Shown piece by piece: positions 859-27,032 of a stretch of DNA of 34,250 bases. Every line of letters begins with the position of its first letter. The first letter of the stretch is position 1. The notes under the pieces are model-generated. The model had not been told where the DNA came from, made no database searches, and was given only the letters and a program-made list of their open reading frames with translations. Source of the DNA: a virus; IMG/VR virus record IMGVR_UViG_3300032073_000108, positions 1-34,250 of that record; one strand, written 5' to 3'. A program made the position numbers and the translations under genes.

Positions 859-2727
859 TTATTTTTTAGCTGTTGGGGAGTAAATTGTAATTAGCTCTTC
901 TTTGCCTTTTACTTTGATTTTTCCAATCTCATGAGAGACATACCCAGACGGGAGTTCTTTCATTGTGAAAGATGAATATATTGTCTTATGATCTATATAT
1001 TCATGTCGTGCGGCAGTGGCCTCGAGCCGAGCGGCAAGGTTGACTGCATCTCCAATAACCGAATAGTCAAATCTGGATTCACTACCCATGTTACCAACAA
1101 TACAATCCCCGGTGTTAATACCAGTCCCAACATTAATGTCAGGAAGGCCACGTTCTTTATAGACTTCTTTAAGTTCATTTACTTTTTCTTCTATTTCAAT
1201 TGCTGACTTAACTGCCATTTCAGCATGATTTGTACAAGGTAATGGTGCATTCCAAAATGCCATTATGCAGTCTCCCATATATTTGTCAATTGTTCCCCCA
1301 TTTTTGAGAATGATTTTTGTCATTGCATCAAGGAATTCATTGACTAATTCTACTAATCCTTCTGGATCATCATTATTCTTATAATGCTCAGATATCGGAG
1401 TAAATCCACAGATATCCATAAATAAGAATGTCATTTCTTTTCTATCACCTCCAAGCTTCATCAAACTTGGATCTTTAATTAACATGTTAACCATATCTGG
1501 TGATAGATATGTACCAAATTGACCCTTAATTTGTTGCCTAAGTTTAAACTGAATCCAAAAGTTATTAAAACTTGCATGCGCGAATACTATTATATATAAT
1601 ACTATAGCGAATGTCCAATCAAGGAGATACATTGAATTCGACCAGAAATAGGCTGATGAGAAGTAGGAGGCAACGAGAGCTGTCACAAAGGCGATTGCAC
1701 CATAATATGCGGAAAAACGATATGAACAAACCAGAATTAACAGAGACCCAATTAGAATTAGACTTATTTCCAGTAGATTCGCCCAAATCGGACGGATTAT
1801 TGATGAAGAAGCTTGAAGACCACCTTCCAGGATTGTCGCAAGAACAGATGCTTGAATCTCATGAGGAAGCTTTAACCCTGACGGAGTCGGACTCTGTGGC
1901 ACTATCCCGAGAGCAGAAACTCCAATCAGAACTGTTTTCCCCTGAAGATCTGGAAGAACATCCACTCCAGCAGAATAACGATCAAACTTTATTGAAGGAT
2001 TAATCCATACCCTTCCAACATTATCTGTTTCAGCATATAATTTTGGTGGTATAAACAGATCCACTACTCCAGTTTCTTCTGTCTTTATTGTATAACCCTT
2101 TGTTTGTTTCTCTGCTCGTATTATTTCGACAGGTAGAGAAGGATATAACTTATTATTAGCCTGCACAACTAGAGGCATTCTTCGTACCAACCCGTCTATT
2201 TCTGGGGATACATTTATCATCCCTATGCCCCATGCGTCATCTTCTAGCATAGGAATGTTTGTTAGTATCTTATTATATTTTTGTACGAACTGATATGGAT
2301 CTCCCTCCCCGGCTTGGGCGGTGCCTACATATGGAGCTACATCATTCCTTCCTCGAGCATCGGCTTTCTGTGATAGGACAACACCAGAACCTTTAATCCA
2401 CGATTCAAATGCAGGATCTCCACCTAACCGATCCGGCTCAGGAAACATTATTGTGAAGGCCTTGATTCCAGCATTTGCATTAATTAAATCTGAAATTATT
2501 TGAGCATAGTATTGTCTTGGTAATGGATATTGTCCCCATTTGCCAAGAGTTTCTTCACTGATATCAAGTAAAACGATATCTTCTGATTTTGTTTGGGGAA
2601 TAGATTGTATTTTAGCATCAAAACCCATTAAACGTATTTGTTCAACAGGTTTGATATCGGCTACTCTAATTACTAAACCTAATACAATGACAATAGCAAC
2701 TGTCCAAAACGATGTAATATATTTCAT
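859..2727 (-). CDS. CHASE2-domain class III adenylate cyclase
   Basis: 622 residues. An N-terminal membrane anchor is followed by an extracytoplasmic CHASE2-type sensor domain (roughly residues 35-310), three transmembrane helices (about 315-390) and a C-terminal class III nucleotide cyclase domain. Metal-binding aspartates are in FLFMDICGFT and DKYMGDCIMAFW; the Lys of IDKYMGD and the Ser of DYSVIGD occupy the purine-recognition positions, and the Asn/Arg pair is in VNLAARLE. This pattern fits an active ATP cyclase of the bacterial IIIb type (family knowledge). The start is ATG 2727 after AGAAG; the longer reading begins with TTG. It is the last gene of the curli-like operon and overlaps the upstream gene by 4 bases. 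It probably makes cAMP in response to an envelope signal (inference). Confidence 0.88.
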   Translation of the reverse strand: MKYITSFWTVAIVIVLGLVIRVADIKPVEQIRLMGFDAKIQSIPQTKSEDIVLLDISEETLGKWGQYPLPRQYYAQIISDLINANAGIKAFTIMFPEPDRLGGDPAFESWIKGSGVVLSQKADARGRNDVAPYVGTAQAGEGDPYQFVQKYNKILTNIPMLEDDAWGIGMINVSPEIDGLVRRMPLVVQANNKLYPSLPVEIIRAEKQTKGYTIKTEETGVVDLFIPPKLYAETDNVGRVWINPSIKFDRYSAGVDVLPDLQGKTVLIGVSALGIVPQSPTPSGLKLPHEIQASVLATILEGGLQASSSIIRPIWANLLEISLILIGSLLILVCSYRFSAYYGAIAFVTALVASYFSSAYFWSNSMYLLDWTFAIVLYIIVFAHASFNNFWIQFKLRQQIKGQFGTYLSPDMVNMLIKDPSLMKLGGDRKEMTFLFMDICGFTPISEHYKNNDDPEGLVELVNEFLDAMTKIILKNGGTIDKYMGDCIMAFWNAPLPCTNHAEMAVKSAIEIEEKVNELKEVYKERGLPDINVGTGINTGDCIVGNMGSESRFDYSVIGDAVNLAARLEATAARHEYIDHKTIYSSFTMKELPSGYVSHEIGKIKVKGKEELITIYSPTAKK

Positions 2728-2945
2728 ATTTGTTCTTCTTGTTGGTGAATCCAAGTTTTCATATCAATTAACCAATTCTTCAATCTTAAAGCTTGTTTCT
2801 CATGAAATATTTGTTCTTCTGGATATTTTATCATTTGAATATTATGATAATCTATCATATGAAGAATTAGACCAATTGCATCTTGATATGGCATACGCAC
2901 TTCGGTAGAAAATGTTCGTTCTACCTTGGACTTTGACTTTTCCAT
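2724..2945 (-). CDS. hypothetical protein, 73 aa, in curli-like operon
   Basis: Begins at ATG 2945, ten bases after the stop of the upstream curlin-like gene, and its TGA overlaps the cyclase ATG (ATATGA). The protein is charged and helical, rich in His, Gln and Glu, with no signal peptide or membrane segment, so it is likely cytoplasmic. No family recognised. Its position between the secreted proteins and the cyclase suggests a regulatory or adaptor role (inference). Confidence 0.65.
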   Translation of the reverse strand: MEKSKSKVERTFSTEVRMPYQDAIGLILHMIDYHNIQMIKYPEEQIFHEKQALRLKNWLIDMKTWIHQQEEQI

Positions 2946-2955
2946 TACACATTAA

Positions 2956-3774
2956 TTATTCTTGTGTAATGCTTATTGAGCAACCCGTGGCGGTTAAACA
3001 GTTTTGAGATAATGTATAAGATTGAGCAGTACTTCCCTTTTGAACAAGATCTAAATCTGTAGGATATGATCCTAATAAATTTACTACTGCAGTATGTGCA
3101 CCGTTATCTCTTTGATTAACCATTACATCATTACCATTTGAATTTCTTATTGTCATAGTAAATGTTTTATTTCCATTTTGTGCTTGTCTAATAAATATGT
3201 CGTTATTATCAGTATATACATTAGCTGTGATTGAATGTGTAATACCAGCGGTATCCATTTTTTGACTTCCAACAAATTTATTATTATCACCATGCATGTC
3301 CAGCCTTACAAAATTTCCTCCGGGCTCATTACCATCGTAATTCCACGTTGGTGTCCAATTTGAAGTATCGTTTAATGAATAACCTTGACCAAATTTAACT
3401 GTATTACTATCTCCTAAAACATGAAATTGGAAATCATTATCTGCGCAACTTGATACAGAACATTTTTGTCGAATATCAAGATTATTACTTAATCCATCTA
3501 AATCTCCACCCCAACTATATCCAGAACCCCATGAATCGGTCCAACCAATATAATTGTTGTTTCCTAATTGTAAAAGATTTATAGTATTATTGTTATGATC
3601 AAATGAAAATTTGACCAAATTAGTATGACCAATTTGTTCTATACCGAGATTTAAATTATCTCCTGAATTGACTTGATCTATATCAATATGGTTGTGCTCA
3701 TCACCCGCCTTGACGAATGACGATAACGACAGACTGACCATCGCCAACAGTAATAAGATTTTTTTGTCCTTCAT
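2956..3774 (-). CDS. secreted curlin-like repeat protein 1
   Basis: 272 residues. It has a clear Sec signal peptide (MKDKKILLLL... to FVKAG, about residues 1-24), then Asn/Gly-rich strand-turn repeats such as IDIDQVNSGDNLN, LGIEQIGHTNL and INLLQLGNNN. These resemble curlin QxGxxN repeats. Two Cys loops are present (KCSVSSC and NCLTATGC, the latter near the C-terminus). The start is ATG 3774 after GGAGAG; a GTG lies two codons upstream. The reading frame overlaps the end of the FecR gene by 74 bases. Likely role is a fibre subunit or nucleator exported through the CsgG pore encoded upstream. Homology to CsgA/CsgB is by repeat pattern only. Confidence 0.75.
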   Translation of the reverse strand: MKDKKILLLLAMVSLSLSSFVKAGDEHNHIDIDQVNSGDNLNLGIEQIGHTNLVKFSFDHNNNTINLLQLGNNNYIGWTDSWGSGYSWGGDLDGLSNNLDIRQKCSVSSCADNDFQFHVLGDSNTVKFGQGYSLNDTSNWTPTWNYDGNEPGGNFVRLDMHGDNNKFVGSQKMDTAGITHSITANVYTDNNDIFIRQAQNGNKTFTMTIRNSNGNDVMVNQRDNGAHTAVVNLLGSYPTDLDLVQKGSTAQSYTLSQNCLTATGCSISITQE

Positions 3775-4849
3775 TTTCACTCTCCAACGTTGTTCCTGAA
3801 CCTATCGGTATTCTTACCGATATTACTCCGTTTACTTCTCTATAGAACCAAATTTGTCCAGCACCTTGATCTATAATTGTATTATATTGTGTTGTCTTAT
3901 CAAATCCTGGTGCGGTGGTTCCCGTAATATCTCCTGATCCGGATGATGAAGATAATACTCTTTTTTGCTTTAATATATTAACTTCTTCTAAAGCAACTAA
4001 AACATCTTGTAAGAAGTCGACATCGAGAAGATCCATGTCGAGTTCATTGAATTCTAAATCATCTTCTGCTAAAAAATCATCGGCCAGATAATCAGTATCG
4101 AGCTCAGTGAAATCAAGTAGGCCATTAGAACTGCCTTTAGCATTACTTTGACTTTCATCTTGTTGTTCCTTTATTTCTTGAGGAGGATTAACAATAAACA
4201 TATTGTCAATCATATTTAAATTTACATTTTGAAGCGTAACAGGTTGAGATGGTGATGTTCCATAACTCGATACCATTGTAGCTTGATATGCTTCAGAGAG
4301 TACAACTACACCACCCTCATTTGTGACTGTAATTTCTCCTGATGGTGAACAATCACCATCTATAGTACACTCAGTTTCCGGTAGGAGAATTACTAAACTT
4401 CTTCCTAACTCATCGACTGATGTAGTAAAATCCGTCCCACGTACGCCCACTGTGGCGGTTGGAGTTTCAATTACTATATTTTCTTTAGGTAATAATCCTA
4501 ATCTTCCAGTAGAAAATCGTGCAGTACCACTGACCATTTTCATACCTATTCCACCATCTTTGGTGTCTTTATTATAATAATATTCGTATAGAGTTACTTC
4601 AGTATGTTCCGTTAATCTAAGTACTGACGTATCTATAAAATCTAATTTAAGTCTACCATTGACCGTTTCAATATGATCCATAGCGACTACACCTAAACCA
4701 AGATCAGTGGCAAATGACTCGCCTTCACGAGTTATTCCACCACTGCCCTTGTGTTCAGTTATACTGCCAACATCATTGGCAAAAGCTGTTGAACTAATCA
4801 GTAATAAACTAGTCAGCAGTATCTTTTTGCTTAATGTCAACAATACCAT
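3701..4849 (-). CDS. FecR-domain exported protein
   Basis: 382 residues. Signal peptide at 1-24 ends in SSTAFA. A FecR-type domain follows (about 25-150): DVGSITEHKGSGG, the TGRLGLLPKEN region and the signature TPTATVGVRGTDF. A Cys loop (ECTIDGDC) follows, then a long acidic Leu/Asp-rich segment (DFTELDTDYLADDF) and a hydrophobic C-terminus. FecR-domain proteins are periplasmic or surface sensors and are often encoded beside CHASE2 cyclases (family knowledge), as here. The start is ATG 4849; an earlier GTG in frame lacks support. The gene overlaps curlin-like genes at both ends, so expression is probably coupled. Confidence 0.82.
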   Translation of the reverse strand: MVLLTLSKKILLTSLLLISSTAFANDVGSITEHKGSGGITREGESFATDLGLGVVAMDHIETVNGRLKLDFIDTSVLRLTEHTEVTLYEYYYNKDTKDGGIGMKMVSGTARFSTGRLGLLPKENIVIETPTATVGVRGTDFTTSVDELGRSLVILLPETECTIDGDCSPSGEITVTNEGGVVVLSEAYQATMVSSYGTSPSQPVTLQNVNLNMIDNMFIVNPPQEIKEQQDESQSNAKGSSNGLLDFTELDTDYLADDFLAEDDLEFNELDMDLLDVDFLQDVLVALEEVNILKQKRVLSSSSGSGDITGTTAPGFDKTTQYNTIIDQGAGQIWFYREVNGVISVRIPIGSGTTLESENEGQKNLITVGDGQSVVIVIRQGG

Positions 4850-5537
4850 TTTCTGTATCAAAATCCGCACTTATTACTCCATAACACCCGCTCACACCAG
4901 ATGGGCATGTACCAGATGATTGAATAATATCAATATCACCGTTTGAACCTATATATTCCATTGTTATTGAATTGTATGCACCATCAGATTGTGTTGTTAA
5001 GAAGTTATTTGAACTTCCAATAACATCTACATTCCAAGTTACATCATCAGCATTAATATCAATATTCCAAACGTTCGATCCACCAGTTATATCTAAATCA
5101 AAATCCAGTCTTTCAGCTGAGGCTGTATAGCCCCAATCTATATCGAAAGTATTTGAAGATCCAGCTATGTCAACGTCCATTACGGACGAATCAGCACTTC
5201 CACCATAACCTACGTTCCAATCCCATATGTTACTACTTCCAGTTAACTTTAAGTCAACATCAGTAGAATCAAATAGTGTTGGACCAAAGATTTGGTTCAA
5301 ATTACCGATCATATCTATATCCATCGTGACGGTATTACCAGTTAAAACCCAATCAGTAGCACAATCTCCACTTGAGATAGTTCCACAAAGCTTATTACCA
5401 TAACCGATTTGGTCTACGTATAGCTTTAGTGTATCTCCAGATTGATCTAAAAGAATTTTGTTGTCATTGGCACCAGCGAACACAATTACAGGGCATAATA
5501 AAAGAGCGAATGCGATATATCTTTTAAAAATATTCAT
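4809..5537 (-). CDS. secreted curlin-like repeat protein 2
   Basis: 242 residues. The signal peptide (MNIFKRYIAFALLL to VFAGA) is followed by about eight imperfect repeats of roughly 20-25 residues with a [DN]xDxxGSSN core, for example DLKLTGSSNIW, DVDIAGSSNTF, DLDITGGSNVW and NVDVIGSSNNF. The first repeat, LYVDQIGYGN, matches the curlin QxGxxN form. Cys pairs are LCGTISSGDC and TCPSGVSGC. It probably forms a beta-solenoid and is exported by CsgG. It differs from E. coli CsgA in having Asp where curlins have Gln. The ATG overlaps the csgG stop (ATGA) and AAGAGG lies upstream. Confidence 0.78.
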   Translation of the reverse strand: MNIFKRYIAFALLLCPVIVFAGANDNKILLDQSGDTLKLYVDQIGYGNKLCGTISSGDCATDWVLTGNTVTMDIDMIGNLNQIFGPTLFDSTDVDLKLTGSSNIWDWNVGYGGSADSSVMDVDIAGSSNTFDIDWGYTASAERLDFDLDITGGSNVWNIDINADDVTWNVDVIGSSNNFLTTQSDGAYNSITMEYIGSNGDIDIIQSSGTCPSGVSGCYGVISADFDTENGIVDIKQKDTAD

Positions 5538-6511
5538 CCTCTTATTTCCTCTATGTTATCAGGAGTAGGTACTTCCACTGGAAGATCTACTTCTGAGTTA
5601 TCTTCGGACTCAGGAACTAATATTATTTCGGCTTCGTCAATAATCTTTTCGACTTTACCTTCTATTATTTGCTCCATTGGCCAGTTTATTTTCCAGAAGT
5701 CGAGTTTCTCCCCCTGGTATATCATTTCTAACACAGCTGCTTCAATTGTTGAGCGAAGTGACCGTGTTACAGATTCGTTTTCTGTCATTCCATCTTCTAT
5801 TTCTACAAGTTGGGTGTCCATATCAACGAACTTAAAGACATCATAACCATCAGCTATAGACAAAATGGTTTTTGATGTTTGCACATTTAATAAAATCTCA
5901 CCTGTTAATGTGCTAACAGCTCTAAGCGAAACTGTAACTATATCTCTGCGGTATTGTTGTGAATAACCAATTCCGAGTGTTCTAGCTCCTATTCCCCCTG
6001 TCTCGATATTAGTATCAAATCCTATGATACCTCCCTCGAGAATGATTCCTGCGAAAAGAAGTGGTGCTAAACCAGTTTTATCTTCTTCTCCATATTGTTC
6101 TCTTGTAGTACGAACTATTTGACGTTCACGTGTAAGATGATCTATTCCTACACGTTCTACTACTCTGAACCATTGTCCTGATCCAGCATTTTTTAATGCA
6201 TCAATAAGCATTGTATCACCGCCTTGTGATACAGCAGTACTAAACATTGCAGCATTTCCTTTTTGTTTTCTTTGACCTGTTTTGTCAGGAAATCCGTATA
6301 CTGCTACAACTATTTGTTTCTCTTCTGGCCTTCCAGGTAAATTCCTTAATTGTTCATATGTAGGTAATTCTACAACTTGTGGAGCTTCTACACATGCTAA
6401 ATTTAATGATGGATTACAGTTTGTAGCTGATAATCCATTTGGTGGCACAATCGAAGCACATCCTTGCATAAGAATGACTCCGAAGAATATTCCGATAAAT
6501 TTCTTAATCAC
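5534..6511 (-). CDS. csgG: CsgG-like curli secretion channel lipoprotein
   Basis: 325 residues from GTG 6511, giving MIKKFIGIFFGVILMQGC, a lipoprotein signal with Cys about 18; a GTG six codons upstream is less likely. The CsgG core aligns clearly with the family: VAVYGFPDKTGQRK, FSTAVSQGGDTML, LERxx-like VVERVGIDHL, the RERQIVRTTRE helix, ILEGGIIGFDTNIETGGIGAR, and TGEILLNVQTSKTILS. CsgG forms a nonameric outer-membrane pore for curli subunits. The protein is longer than E. coli CsgG (277 residues) because of an acidic 50-residue tail after DFWKINW and an N-terminal insert with a Cys loop (NCNPSLNLAC). The gene lies directly after csgF. CsgE was not found. Confidence 0.93.
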   Translation of the reverse strand: MIKKFIGIFFGVILMQGCASIVPPNGLSATNCNPSLNLACVEAPQVVELPTYEQLRNLPGRPEEKQIVVAVYGFPDKTGQRKQKGNAAMFSTAVSQGGDTMLIDALKNAGSGQWFRVVERVGIDHLTRERQIVRTTREQYGEEDKTGLAPLLFAGIILEGGIIGFDTNIETGGIGARTLGIGYSQQYRRDIVTVSLRAVSTLTGEILLNVQTSKTILSIADGYDVFKFVDMDTQLVEIEDGMTENESVTRSLRSTIEAAVLEMIYQGEKLDFWKINWPMEQIIEGKVEKIIDEAEIILVPESEDNSEVDLPVEVPTPDNIEEIRG

Positions 6512-7064
6512 CGCCTGCTGTTCCTGCACCTATTGGAATTACTATTTGTGTTTCTGTGCCATCTTCAGCAATAATTGTCATAACTATGACATCATCGCCT
6601 TGAGTACATGCCCACAAACTAGCATCACATGTTGTTTTTTGATATGTAATCGTATTACCTTCAAGTATAAAACTACCATATGTTGTTTCTGTACATGTTC
6701 CAGCAGCAATTGCTTCAGCTGAACATGCTTTAAATAACTCTTCTACCAGTTGTTTACTTAATTGGGCATAAATCCTCGATTCGAGGTTTCGCATAAATTT
6801 AGCTAAAGTAGTATTTTCAGCATCTCTTTGTGCTGCTTGTAAAGCACTTTCTATGTCATCAGCAATAGCTTGTTTTCTGCTAAATTCCTGATTCTCAATA
6901 GTAAGATAATGTGATGATGTACCAACTCCGCTAAATGACGGATTTTTAAATTCATGTACTAATTCATCAGCATTAGCATTTGGCGTTAAGCTTAATACTG
7001 ATAATACAAAAATCCCAATTAAAGTAGTTACTTCTAATTTATCTCTTAGGTTTTTTATCTTCAT
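6504..7064 (-). CDS. csgF: CsgF-like curli assembly factor
   Basis: 186 residues. The start is ATG 7064, eight bases after GGAGA, giving a signal peptide that ends in PNANA. The mature N-terminus DELVHEFKNPSFSG is the CsgF signature that plugs into the CsgG pore in the known system. It is followed by the helical segment FMRNLESRIYAQLSKQL and a C-terminal strand region (MTIIAEDGTETQIVIP) like the end of CsgF. Two Cys pairs (ACSAEAIAAGTC and TTCDASLWAC) are absent from mature E. coli CsgF as I recall it. The gene overlaps its neighbours on both sides. Confidence 0.93.
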   Translation of the reverse strand: MKIKNLRDKLEVTTLIGIFVLSVLSLTPNANADELVHEFKNPSFSGVGTSSHYLTIENQEFSRKQAIADDIESALQAAQRDAENTTLAKFMRNLESRIYAQLSKQLVEELFKACSAEAIAAGTCTETTYGSFILEGNTITYQKTTCDASLWACTQGDDVIVMTIIAEDGTETQIVIPIGAGTAGGD

Positions 7065-7365
7065 TCTGTTTCTCCGCGAGAGCTTCCTTTTCCTCAATAT
7101 CTTCTAAGAATTTTTGTCTCTCTCTATATTCGAGTACAACATTTACCTTCTGCTGTAATCGTATCATATCTTGATCGAGCATTCGAACTTGATCAATTAA
7201 CCTGATAAGAGCAAAATGCATCTTTTCTATTTCAGGTTCTAATTCATTGGATATAAACTGCCATACGTAGTATATAAAATATCCCATTCCAACTGCCAAA
7301 ACAATTGGAAATCCATAATCGTTGATGAGAGCAACTAATGTAGGATCTTGTTCAAGAACATCCAT
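7039..7365 (-). CDS. membrane/coiled-coil protein, paralog B
   Basis: 108 residues. One hydrophobic helix (about 18-38, LAVGMGYFIYYVW) is followed by a heptad-like amphipathic helix (ALIRLIDQVRMLDQDMIRLQ) and a charged Lys/Glu tail. It parallels the adjacent upstream protein in layout and in the GYFI core, so the pair looks like a tandem duplication. The ATG at 7365 overlaps the upstream stop (TAATG) and has AAGGAGA upstream. It is positioned just before csgF, so a role in the secretion apparatus is possible, but similar small proteins occur in marine phages without curli genes (my recollection). Function unknown. Confidence 0.75.
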   Translation of the reverse strand: MDVLEQDPTLVALINDYGFPIVLAVGMGYFIYYVWQFISNELEPEIEKMHFALIRLIDQVRMLDQDMIRLQQKVNVVLEYRERQKFLEDIEEKEALAEKQNEDKKPKR

Positions 7366-7658
7366 TAATCTCTCCTTGCATCGATTTTACCATCCTCGAC
7401 AAAGTTTGACGCTCTTGCTACTCTGTCGACGGGTGGTGTAAGTTCCAATGCGCTACTCACCAATAAATCTATCTTTATCATCTCATTATTCATAGTCGTT
7501 ACTCTAGTTTCTAAGCTCTTAGTGAACATAGTAAGAGTGGCGATAGAATCAACGAGACCACCTAAAATCTGTCTTAATATTAAGAATATAAAATAGCCCA
7601 TCACCAGAGATCCGGCAATCGGTGTACCTACCTCCATTATGAGTTCAAATATTTCCAT
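7365..7658 (-). CDS. membrane/coiled-coil protein, paralog A; first gene of late operon
   Basis: 97 residues. The hydrophobic helix at about 12-30 (GSLVMGYFIFLILRQ) is followed by an amphipathic helix (SLETRVTTMNNEMIKIDLLV). It shares layout and core motif with the next protein. There is no Shine-Dalgarno sequence: only five bases separate the late promoter TATAAATA from ATG 7658, so the message is probably leaderless. Function unknown; both N-in and N-out topologies are possible. Confidence 0.75.
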   Translation of the reverse strand: MEIFELIMEVGTPIAGSLVMGYFIFLILRQILGGLVDSIATLTMFTKSLETRVTTMNNEMIKIDLLVSSALELTPPVDRVARASNFVEDGKIDARRD

Positions 7659-7663
7659 AGTAC

Positions 7664-7671
7664 TATTTATA
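7664..7671 (-). promoter_or_regulatory. T4-type late promoter for curli-like operon
   Basis: Exact TATAAATA on the minus strand (7671..7664), followed by GTACT and then ATG 7658. In T4 this octamer spans about -13 to -6, which puts +1 on the A of the ATG. No other promoter was seen before 859, so it probably drives the whole ten-gene operon late in infection. Confidence 0.75.
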
Positions 7672-7691: not shown

Positions 7692-8009
7692 TTAAAAAGA
7701 GACAGATTCTCCACAACCACAGGACGCAGTTGCATTTGGATTTATGAATTTAAATTCTGAATTGAGACCTTCTGTGACATAGTCTAAGGTTAATCCAGTA
7801 AAGTTGTGTAGTTGACCAGTTTCTACTACGATTAGAAAATTGCCATAATCGATTACGTGATCGTCAGTATGTACTGTATCAGCATAATCCAAAATATATT
7901 TAAAACCGTTGCAACCCCCAGGATGATACCCAATTCGTATAGTATCATTCCCCGCATCTTGGGTTTTTGATGTGAGTTGCTGTATTGCTTCATTAGTTAA
8001 CTCGATCAT
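7692..8009 (-). CDS. iscA: A-type Fe-S carrier protein, IscA/ErpA family
   Basis: 105 residues, the usual family length. The three conserved cysteines are C33 in HPGGCNGF and C97/C99 in SCGCG near the C-terminus, matching C35/C99/C101 of E. coli IscA. A-type proteins carry or transfer Fe-S clusters to client enzymes. The gene overlaps iscU by 17 bases and has GAGGT before its ATG. IscA, ErpA and SufA cannot be told apart here. The cluster ligands are intact, so the protein is likely functional. Confidence 0.92.
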   Translation of the reverse strand: MIELTNEAIQQLTSKTQDAGNDTIRIGYHPGGCNGFKYILDYADTVHTDDHVIDYGNFLIVVETGQLHNFTGLTLDYVTEGLNSEFKFINPNATASCGCGESVSF

Positions 8010-8430
8010 TTGGACCTCGATTGTGCTGTCTATGGGCTTTTTTATCTTCCCAATTTTCTATGGCTTTGCGAATAGAATCTTCGGCCAATACAGAACAATG
8101 AAGTTTGATAGGCGGAAGTTCTAAAGCTGCTGCAATATCTTTATCTTTAACTTGCTTAGCTTCGTCTATGGTTTTACCCATAAGCATATCAACGAATAAT
8201 GAAGAAGATGCGATTGCTGAACCACATCCGTATGTTTTAAATTTGACGTCAACGATTTGCTCGTCATCATTCAATTTCAGTTGTAGCTTCATGACATCAC
8301 CACACGCTGGTGCACCTGTCATTCCGGTTGCTACATTGGATTCTTTGGGATCGAATCGGCCTACAGAGAATTTCTCTGGAGAGTTTAAAACAGATTCAAA
8401 TCTGTCTACTACTTGCTTTGAATAGGCCAT
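7993..8430 (-). CDS. iscU: IscU-type Fe-S cluster scaffold
   Basis: 145 residues. Cluster ligands are present in the expected places: C43 and D45 in GAPACGD, C69 in KTYGCGS, and H111/C112 in KLHCSVLAED. The LPPxK chaperone-recognition motif is also present (LPPIK). It assembles clusters with sulfur from IscS and passes them to carriers such as the IscA encoded next. No IscS, HscA or ferredoxin is visible, so it would rely on host partners. No Shine-Dalgarno is evident before ATG 8430; expression may be coupled to the upstream gene. Confidence 0.95.
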   Translation of the reverse strand: MAYSKQVVDRFESVLNSPEKFSVGRFDPKESNVATGMTGAPACGDVMKLQLKLNDDEQIVDVKFKTYGCGSAIASSSLFVDMLMGKTIDEAKQVKDKDIAAALELPPIKLHCSVLAEDSIRKAIENWEDKKAHRQHNRGPNDRVN

Positions 8431-9400: not shown

Positions 9401-9590
9401 TTTTAATAGTGGTGGAGCTGACAGGGGTCGAACCTGCGACCTCATCCGTGCAAGGGACGCGCTCTCCCAACTGAGCTACAGCCCCACGTTTTTTGTTTCC
9501 CCAAATTAAATCCCAATTATCTGCGTATTTACTTTCATCAGAATTTCTTCTTTTAGAACCTTTTCCTCCATGCCATTGTTCAGTCATCAT
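9375..9590 (-). CDS. GGKGS-type small phage protein whose frame runs through a tRNA
   Basis: Starts at ATG 9590 (or 9587) with MTEQWHGGKGSKRRNS and KYADNWDLIWGNKK, a short family I recognise from marine T4-like phages, where it normally ends about here. In this phage no stop occurs: the frame passes the tRNA-Ala at a codon boundary (last codon CGT at 9488..9486, tRNA begins 9485) and stops only at 9375. The last 37 residues are therefore tRNA plus spacer translation. RNase P cleavage would leave an mRNA without a stop codon. The functional protein is probably the first 35 residues. Confidence 0.6.
   Translation of the reverse strand: MMTEQWHGGKGSKRRNSDESKYADNWDLIWGNKKRGAVAQLGERVPCTDEVAGSTPVSSTTIKNDKDIKKD
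9410..9485 (-). tRNA. tRNA-Ala (UGC)
   Basis: 76-base cloverleaf on the minus strand. Acceptor GGGGCTG pairs with CAGCTCC (one G-U); D-arm GCTCAGTTGGGAGAGC; anticodon stem CGTCC/GGATG with loop CTTGCAC, anticodon TGC; T-arm GCAGG/CCTGT with loop TTCGACC; A73; CCA encoded at 9412..9410. It lies inside a protein frame on the same strand. Confidence 0.96.
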
Positions 9591-14810: not shown

Positions 14811-14839
14811 ATTATACCATATTTTTACTCTTTTGTACA
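14811..14839 (-). promoter_or_regulatory. early sigma70-type promoter, copy 5 (leaderless)
   Basis: TGTACA (14839..14834), 17-base spacer, TGGTATAAT (hexamer 14816..14811). Predicted +1 at 14804, adjacent to ATG 14803. The last codons and the TAA stop of the upstream gene lie inside this promoter. Confidence 0.8.
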
Positions 14840-15267
14840 TGCTTTTCTTTTAGATATTTGACAGAATTTCCACCAATACGAACATTGATAATGCCATTGT
14901 AGTAATCCTCACGAAGTAATACATCTTCTTCGAACTGAACCTTTGCTTCCAAATAAGCACATTCACCCTTAGTTTTACAAAGAATAAGAATCTCGCGACA
15001 GAAAGCTTCAGCTCCCATCGTTTCAATGTCCTCCAGAAGGTTTTTACTACTTCCGTAATACTTTCTCCAATCACTTTCTACTAATAGTTTCTTTCTTCGT
15101 TTTCTTGTTTTTGTAATTGGTAAGGTCTTTTTACTCCAAAAGAACTTCTTACCGATGTATTTCATTCCGTTGAATCGATTTGTTATCTTATAAACAAATC
15201 CATAATATACGTCAGAATTAAAATCTGTCGGTGGCTCCCATATTCTGCCTAAATGTGTCCAATCCAT
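14812..15267 (-). CDS. GIY-YIG-like putative nuclease
   Basis: 151 residues. YGFVYKITN followed by MKYIGKKFF corresponds to the GIY...YIG core, with a basic stretch (KTRKRRKKLL) and WRKYYGSSKNLLEDI after it, and a Glu in the YLEAKVQFEE helix that could be the metal-binding residue. Such small proteins are frequent in T4-like marine phages. ATG 15267 lies five bases after the late octamer at 15273-15280 with no ribosome-binding site. The C-terminal four codons are shared with the next promoter. Confidence 0.72.
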   Translation of the reverse strand: MDWTHLGRIWEPPTDFNSDVYYGFVYKITNRFNGMKYIGKKFFWSKKTLPITKTRKRRKKLLVESDWRKYYGSSKNLLEDIETMGAEAFCREILILCKTKGECAYLEAKVQFEEDVLLREDYYNGIINVRIGGNSVKYLKEKHVQKSKNMV

Positions 15268-15272
15268 ATATG

Positions 15273-15280
15273 TATTTATA
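15273..15280 (-). promoter_or_regulatory. T4-type late promoter (leaderless)
   Basis: Exact TATAAATA (15280..15273), then CATAT and ATG 15267: the same 5-base spacing as the late promoter at 7664-7671. It overlaps the stop of the zinc-ribbon gene. Confidence 0.7.
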
Positions 15281-25937: not shown

Positions 25938-27032
25938 CTAGTCTAATAGACCTTTTTTACGTTTATAAATGTTTATAGCAGTTGCGATCTTTACTTTTTT
26001 CCAATCTGAACCATATTTGGCTTGAAAATCTTGATCATCTAATTTCTTAGCAATTGCTTCAATCTCTTTCTTAATTTCTGGAGTTAATTTTAACTCTGTG
26101 TCTTCTTTGTCGTTTTCATTTTTTATGAAATCTGCAAATTTAGTTACGCCTTCACCTGGAGTATTTTTCTTATAATTTTCAACAGATGCATCTGTACCCC
26201 ATTCTTTTGGTGATTCTTCTATTCGTTCTACTGAATCTAACCAACATCTTTTCTTTGTATTTCCGAATTTAACTAATACATAATTAGAAAGCAATCGTTC
26301 AACTATTCCTACTTGTTGAGACGCTACTTCTATAACTTCATCACCTACAGAAAAAAGTTTACCTTTTATATAATCTTCTCTAATAGTAGAAACTGATTCT
26401 AATTGTATATGCCCTTCTTTAAATACATTAGGTTTTAAACCCATGCCCTTTCGAACAGCATTATATAATCCTATTTGAGAATCACCTTGTATTTCAGGAA
26501 CTCCCATTGAAAATGTTTTTATATCACCATCGGCTGCAGCTTCTCTCATTTTAGAAGCACTCATTCCACTTGCACCTTCGGCGTCAGGATCTCTTTCACC
26601 TGCACTTATAACTTTAACACCGCTTTCAAATTGATAAAAACCATGTTTACCTTTTTTACCATTATATTTGTTAAGTAACGTATTAAACTCATTCACTCTA
26701 TCTGAACCAGCAACCATCGTTACTTGTGTAAAACCTTGTTTATATAACGTATCTAATACATCAAATACTGTACGTATATTTTTGTCTCCCATGATTTTTC
26801 TACCATGCTTTGGAAACATCTTACGAAGAAATTTAACCTTCGTTTTAAAATCTAAAGGATTCTTTTTCTTATCAACTGTCTTACTCGAATAAATTCTATA
26901 TTCTTTACCAGCTACTTTTTGTAATGTACCAAATAGCTTTGCGTGTCCTATTGTTGGTGGATTAAATCTACCAAATACAAAGCTGACATCTTTGGTATCT
27001 TCTACCAGAAAGTCCTTAAATCCTTTAATCAT
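25938..27032 (-). CDS. cytidylyltransferase-fold nucleotidyltransferase with targeting-like N-terminus
   Basis: 364 residues. After MIKGFKDFLVEDTKD comes a HIGH-type nucleotidyltransferase domain: VFGRFNPPTIGHAKL, VTMVAGSDRVNEF and GMSASKMREAA (the ISxSxxR-like site). A KOW/SH3-like barrel (SVGDEVIEVASQQVGIVERLL) and a C-terminal helix (KVKIATAINIYKRK) follow. Related domains make NAD, CoA or CDP-linked products; the substrate here is unknown. The first 14 residues fit a cleavable capsid-targeting peptide, so the enzyme may be packaged. Confidence 0.82.
   Translation of the reverse strand: MIKGFKDFLVEDTKDVSFVFGRFNPPTIGHAKLFGTLQKVAGKEYRIYSSKTVDKKKNPLDFKTKVKFLRKMFPKHGRKIMGDKNIRTVFDVLDTLYKQGFTQVTMVAGSDRVNEFNTLLNKYNGKKGKHGFYQFESGVKVISAGERDPDAEGASGMSASKMREAAADGDIKTFSMGVPEIQGDSQIGLYNAVRKGMGLKPNVFKEGHIQLESVSTIREDYIKGKLFSVGDEVIEVASQQVGIVERLLSNYVLVKFGNTKKRCWLDSVERIEESPKEWGTDASVENYKKNTPGEGVTKFADFIKNENDKEDTELKLTPEIKKEIEAIAKKLDDQDFQAKYGSDWKKVKIATAINIYKRKKGLLD

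Follow-up and report, generated by a model that had tools for sequence, protein, structure and literature searches.

A curli-type secretion operon under a putative T4-type late promoter in marine T4-type phages

We analysed a stretch of viral DNA of 34,250 nucleotides (IMG/VR virus record IMGVR_UViG_3300032073_000108, positions 1 to 34,250; hereafter the window), which carries an operon of curli-type (type VIII) secretion genes behind a putative late promoter of the phage T4 type. We consider it reasonably probable that this operon is a conserved pelagimyophage type VIII cassette that exports fibres from infected cells late in infection.

Gene order and promoter position of the cassette

The operon comprises nine open reading frames (ORFs), all on the minus strand between positions 859 and 7658, in one overlapping run with overlaps of approximately 1–75 nt and a single 10-nt gap (Table 1). 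The initial annotation had described ten genes joined by overlaps or gaps of 10 bases or less; the overlapping run and the 10-nt gap were confirmed, but nine genes were counted. Its assignments of CsgF, CsgG, a FecR-domain protein, and a CHASE2 cyclase were borne out by Pfam profiles. As in type VIII secretion systems, CsgG has a lipoprotein signal and a CsgG domain, and its profile matched solved CsgG structures in PDB at 2e-67. The N-terminal segment of CsgF, FKNPSFSGxGTSxHYLTIENQE, was highly conserved in the alignment and appears to correspond to the CsgG-docking segment of these systems; CsgF was aligned with the CsgF of 6L7A over this segment, with a weak direct PDB profile match (E=0.065). 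Metal-binding and catalytic residues were visible in the sequence of the cyclase. Among the ten proteins scanned, none matched the Pfam families of CsgE, CsgC, or CsgD, in agreement with the initial annotation.

Scans of viral contigs for CsgG gave 43 and 80 loci, and profiles were then built from these loci. The order TM1-TM2-CsgF-CsgG-Rep1-FecR-Rep2-cyclase was found in almost all loci of sufficient length, over approximately 110 viral loci in which related contigs were counted separately, so that locus counts are not independent events. The same eight-gene core order was present in the isolates HTVC008M and Melnitz. The cassette is a fixed eight-gene unit that is widely conserved.

The first gene, TM1, is preceded by one exact box, TATAAATA, as initially annotated. 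The abundance of this motif was dropped as promoter evidence, since its count in the window was at chance level (8 found versus 7.2 expected, with at least 8 in 40 of 100 shuffles); seven of the eight copies lay on the coding strand. The position of the box was conserved. NATAAATA occurred within 60 nt upstream of TM1 in 87 of 112 viral loci and exactly 5 nt before the TM1 ATG in 56, a number that is somewhat generous as the TM1 script preferred the ATG giving the 5-nt spacing where several were possible; the genome-wide tests described below are unaffected. Before any other cassette gene, it was found in 0–8 loci each. In six loci (L141–L145 and L149), the TATAAATA box was replaced by CCTAAATAG a similar distance upstream of TM1. 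TATAAATA lies at -13 to -6 of the predicted transcription start, and relatives including HTVC008M and a 130-kb contig (G001) encode gp55 and gp45, loci that the window fragment does not span; gp55 was found in 14 of the 20 records checked, which were partly fragments. The putative late promoter is supported by this conservation of position, not by motif count, and the earlier proposal of a curli-type operon under T4-type late control gained support accordingly from its relatives.

The window genes for gp41, RNR, RNase H, and a DNA-binding protein matched those of pelagimyophage HTVC008M, and G001 encodes T4-type capsid, portal, and gp43 in addition to gp55 and gp45. Therefore, the phage of the window is a marine T4-type phage. 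A non-T4 phage, suspected from PHROG names (DnaB, exonuclease), was ruled out by the comparison with HTVC008M. A bacterial block wrongly joined to viral DNA was also ruled out, as the remaining genes of the contig match HTVC008M and the same junction was found again in dozens of contigs.

Table 1 Features of the operon in the window
Feature	Position	Strand	PHROG family	Description
T4-type late promoter box TATAAATA (putative)	7664..7671	-		Spaced exactly 5 nt from the start codon (ATG) of TM1, the first gene
TM1	7365..7658	-	phrog_18771	97-aa membrane protein, phage-specific; no Pfam domain
TM2	7039..7365	-	phrog_18771	108-aa TM1 paralogue; conserved C-terminal coil (RMLDQDxIRL)
CsgF	6504..7064	-	phrog_35372	Signal peptide; Pfam PF10614, E=2.3e-10; conserved N-terminal segment; longer C-terminal part
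CsgG outer-membrane secretion channel	5534..6529	-	phrog_20175	Lipoprotein signal (MQGC); PF03783, E=1.7e-48
Rep1, secreted curlin-like repeat protein	4809..5537	-		Family matches to Curlin_rpt; all-beta AlphaFold (AF2) model
FecR-domain protein, secreted	3701..4849	-	phrog_37870	PF04773, 1.8e-10; alignment
Rep2, second secreted curlin-like repeat protein	2956..3774	-		Family matches to Curlin_rpt; all-beta AF2 model
orf73, optional small ORF	2724..2945	-		73 aa; matched in nearest relatives and L033 only
CHASE2 sensor and class III adenylate cyclase	859..2727	-	phrog_35576 (2e-190)	Pfam CHASE2 2e-34, Guanylate_cyc 2.4e-19

Genes for IscA-like and NifU-like Fe-S cluster proteins (window 7692–8430) adjoin the operon upstream, as they do in many relatives. 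Downstream, positions 87–440 encode a small protein that contains HEMVH, an HExxH-type motif, and is a candidate metalloprotease; a tRNA-Ala (TGC) gene was located at 9410–9485.

Spacing between late boxes and start codons

By the numbering used for T4 late boxes, which begins at T(-13), a 5-nt spacing places the +1 position on the A of the ATG. In the pooled loci, this spacing occurred 100 times, compared with approximately 8 for any other spacing; the 56 TM1 sites are largely contained among these 100. The start codons behind spacing-5 boxes were ATG in 100 cases and GTG in one. A Shine-Dalgarno-like sequence was present at 2 of 100 sites with spacing 5, whereas it was present at 126 of 237 with spacings of 12–40. 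In a jitter test, the 5-nt peak had p ~2e-4 in the window; for HTVC008M and G001, p was at most 5e-5 (0/20,000), and the spacing was enriched genome-wide in most pelagimyophages checked. In HTVC008M, such boxes precede csgF and the genes for the tape measure, DNA end protector, tube cap, and baseplate. Two further NATAAATA boxes in the window have the exact 5-nt spacing to an ATG: the one at 15273–15280 precedes a 151-aa ORF (14812–15267), and the other precedes an ORF (25938–27032) encoding a 364-aa cytidyltransferase-like protein.

Comparison phages were sampled as segments rather than whole genomes: no 5-nt-spaced box was found in the segments of T4, Syn9, and P-SSM2, and just one was found in 50 kb of pelagimyophage Mosig. 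Because of the single box in Mosig, the trait may vary within pelagimyophages. On balance, we favour the view that many gp55-type late promoters of pelagimyophages form a leaderless class, in which the first transcribed base is the A of the start ATG, both in the curli operon and in several virion genes, and the transcripts carry no Shine-Dalgarno sequence. This arrangement differs from that in the sampled T4 and cyanophage segments and would reflect adaptation of translation to streamlined marine hosts. No account of leaderless T4-type late genes in phages of SAR11 or in cyanophages was found in the literature collection searched. If these promoters are real, a T4-type phage would have rewired translation initiation for SAR11-like hosts.

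Component proteins and bacterial relatives

TM1 and TM2 are paralogous and were found with the curli cassette in the viral loci examined. When 289 alphaproteobacterial genomes were searched for genes resembling TM2, one weak partial match only was obtained, with a satisfactory positive control, and both genes appear confined to phages. Searches of PDB and Pfam with TM2 gave no significant match, and no HisKA or HATPase kinase domain was detected in TM1 or TM2 (approximately 80–130 aa). They are probably the gene(s) published as a 'histidine kinase', judged from position and size. One locus (L276) has TM1, TM2, cyclase, FecR, and Rep1 with csgF and csgG unrecognised, and is rearranged, frameshifted, or misassembled.

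Curlin_rpt was matched at E<=0.1 by 30 of 42 members of the Rep1 family and by 13 of 27 members of the Rep2 family (best 3.4e-9), which suggests a curlin-like nature for the two repeat-protein families. The AF2 models of Rep1 and Rep2 were all-beta, with predicted local distance difference test (pLDDT) scores of 85.5 and 76.9, respectively.

In the FecR protein, a signal peptide is followed by the FecR beta domain and an acidic linker, and the C-terminus closes with a strand of curlin-like character. This build makes membership of the exported assembly more plausible than a role as an iron regulator. Its sequence has an N-terminal signal peptide and no cytoplasmic tail, unlike FecR anti-sigma and iron regulators, and no sigma factor was matched among the operon proteins in Pfam or PHROGs. 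A membrane anti-sigma regulator was ruled out, as the protein is secreted. The initial annotation had counted two sensors; for the cyclase, a role as a CHASE2 sensor is plausible, but FecR is not a membrane regulator. Outside curli loci, FecR adjoined a cyclase in 4 of approximately 29 loci, for which the flanks retrieved were too short.

Three alphaproteobacterial metagenome-assembled genomes (MAGs; L059–L061) contain a csgF-csgG-repeat(s)-FecR-cyclase block without TM1 and TM2. In a CsgG tree of 63 rows with midpoint rooting, their sequences were placed within the clade to which every viral sequence belongs, with the HTVC008M/Melnitz group on one side and the remaining viruses on the other (supports 99/98 and 100/97). 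Since the bacterial CsgGs are nested among viral ones, either two acquisitions by phages or one return to bacteria may have taken place. FecR and cyclase have been stated to lie outside bacterial curli operons (PMC9599517), and these three loci are exceptions to that statement. A further locus labelled Sphingobacteriales (L058, JAAXIF010000105.1) has the full viral cassette with TM1 and TM2, groups with viruses in the CsgG tree, and is probably of phage origin, the contig having been assigned to a bacterial MAG during binning.

The cassette is also carried by a distinct group of partly very large viral contigs (L156–L158, L162, and L163, plus L160 and L161 of 216 kb and 340 kb). No NATAAATA box was found in this group where the upstream region was readable, and several members have in common a sequence resembling (A)ACAGAGTGTG upstream of TM1. 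Two contigs of 103 kb and 114 kb (L179 and L200) have the cassette without a detectable T4-type gp55 or capsid and without a late box; they are possibly another phage lineage, or fragments.

Proposed function and comparison with known systems

We infer the following course from transcription start to benefit. The gp55/gp33/gp45 late-transcription apparatus would start at TATAAATA late in infection, giving a polycistronic mRNA that begins at or beside the AUG of the first gene. CsgG would form the outer-membrane channel with CsgF docked into it, and Rep1 and Rep2, as putative curlin-like subunits, would cross this channel and form fibres on the cell surface. FecR, itself secreted, probably becomes part of the exported structure or caps it, the CHASE2 cyclase may report the envelope state as cAMP, and TM1 and TM2 would be a phage-specific addition to the inner membrane. 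The likely benefit is a change of the infected-cell surface during virion assembly, by which neighbouring hosts are held or competing phages are shielded against. The initial annotation had listed aggregation, exclusion of other phages, decoy fibres, and export of a toxin or lytic factor; fibre-mediated aggregation or exclusion would fit the gene content best, and shielding may be likelier than aggregation because Melnitz cultures showed no clumping.

Several observations weigh against fibre export under late control. Neither fibres nor clumping were seen in Melnitz cultures (PMC9004378). The window's own copies of Rep1 and Rep2, initially annotated as secreted repeat proteins, fell below the Pfam curlin cut-off despite the curlin-like character of their families, and Foldseek searches with both against PDB gave no match at E<=0.001. 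The proteins scanned include no CsgE gating cap; alphaproteobacterial curli versions are also without CsgE (PMC9599517), and this absence is therefore not decisive for membership. The box was missing in 25 of 112 loci, which belong to distant groups, carry variant motifs (CCTAAATAG, for example), or had their start codons mispicked by our script.

Alternatively, the operon could be a lysis-timing device, in which TM1/TM2 and CsgG, together with CsgF, would make the envelope permeable late in infection, in the manner of a holin or pinholin. The late promoter, the small phage-specific membrane proteins, and the pinholin-like role proposed for CsgG in Melnitz (PMC9004378) are consistent with this, but CsgG is an outer-membrane lipoprotein channel, the similarity of TM1/TM2 to holin/YvrJ is very weak (holin E 0.012 and 0.055, insignificant), and the retention of FecR, the cyclase, and two secreted repeat proteins would be left unexplained; we regard this device as rather unlikely. 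An uptake pore, by which CsgG opens the outer membrane to larger nutrients during infection, was proposed in PMC7029224 and PMC9599517 and agrees with the lack of the CsgE gate. CsgF and both repeat proteins would then be superfluous, yet they are retained, which makes this explanation quite improbable. Two points favour a complete exporter over a bare pore: the export substrates stay next to the channel, and some bacteria carry a related csgF-csgG-repeat-FecR-cyclase operon.

As for the promoter, TATAAATA could match by chance in AT-rich DNA, with transcription of the operon coming from another promoter or reading through from iscA/nifU upstream. The chance-level motif count and the end of iscA, 33 nt upstream of the first ATG, would suit such an arrangement. 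It is nevertheless very improbable given the conserved position and spacing of the box in relatives and the genome-wide 5-nt peak.

The operon is of an already published kind, not new: although the full set with both sensors had been annotated as little studied, the module is covered by three papers of 2020, 2022, and 2022 (PMC7029224, PMC9004378, and PMC9599517). The first reported csgF/csgG plus unknowns, the second discussed lysis control in Melnitz, and the third described CsgA/B-like curlin repeats, FecR, adenylate cyclase, and the 'histidine kinase'. The idea that CsgF no longer pairs with CsgG (PMC9004378) appears weakened because the N-terminal segment of CsgF is highly conserved.

The pelagimyophage/pelagiphage curli module of HTVC008M (gp011–gp019) has the same families in the same order as the window, including FecR, the cyclase, and a second repeat protein that was assigned by position without a match to the window's repeat protein. 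Its CsgG is 47% identical to that of the window. The box stands before TM1 in the window but before csgF in HTVC008M and before the cyclase in Melnitz, in both isolates at 5-nt spacing. The curli operon of Methylophilales phage Melnitz EXVC044M has the order of the window at 34–41% identity. Escherichia coli curli (csgBAC/csgDEFG) has homologous CsgG and CsgF, and curlin-type repeat substrates are common to both systems, whereas the window has an extra FecR protein, CHASE2 cyclase, and TM1/TM2 in addition to lacking recognisable CsgE, CsgC, and CsgD. Tyr51, the constriction residue of E. coli CsgG, is not conserved in the window CsgG. The chromosomal operons of the Caulobacteraceae/Hyphomonas MAGs (L059–L061) keep the gene order of the window from csgF to the CHASE2 cyclase but have no separate Rep2 after FecR. 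To the known systems, these comparisons add a fixed eight-gene cassette, two non-kinase genes apparently confined to phages, a secreted FecR protein, and a putative promoter tied to the virion-assembly programme.

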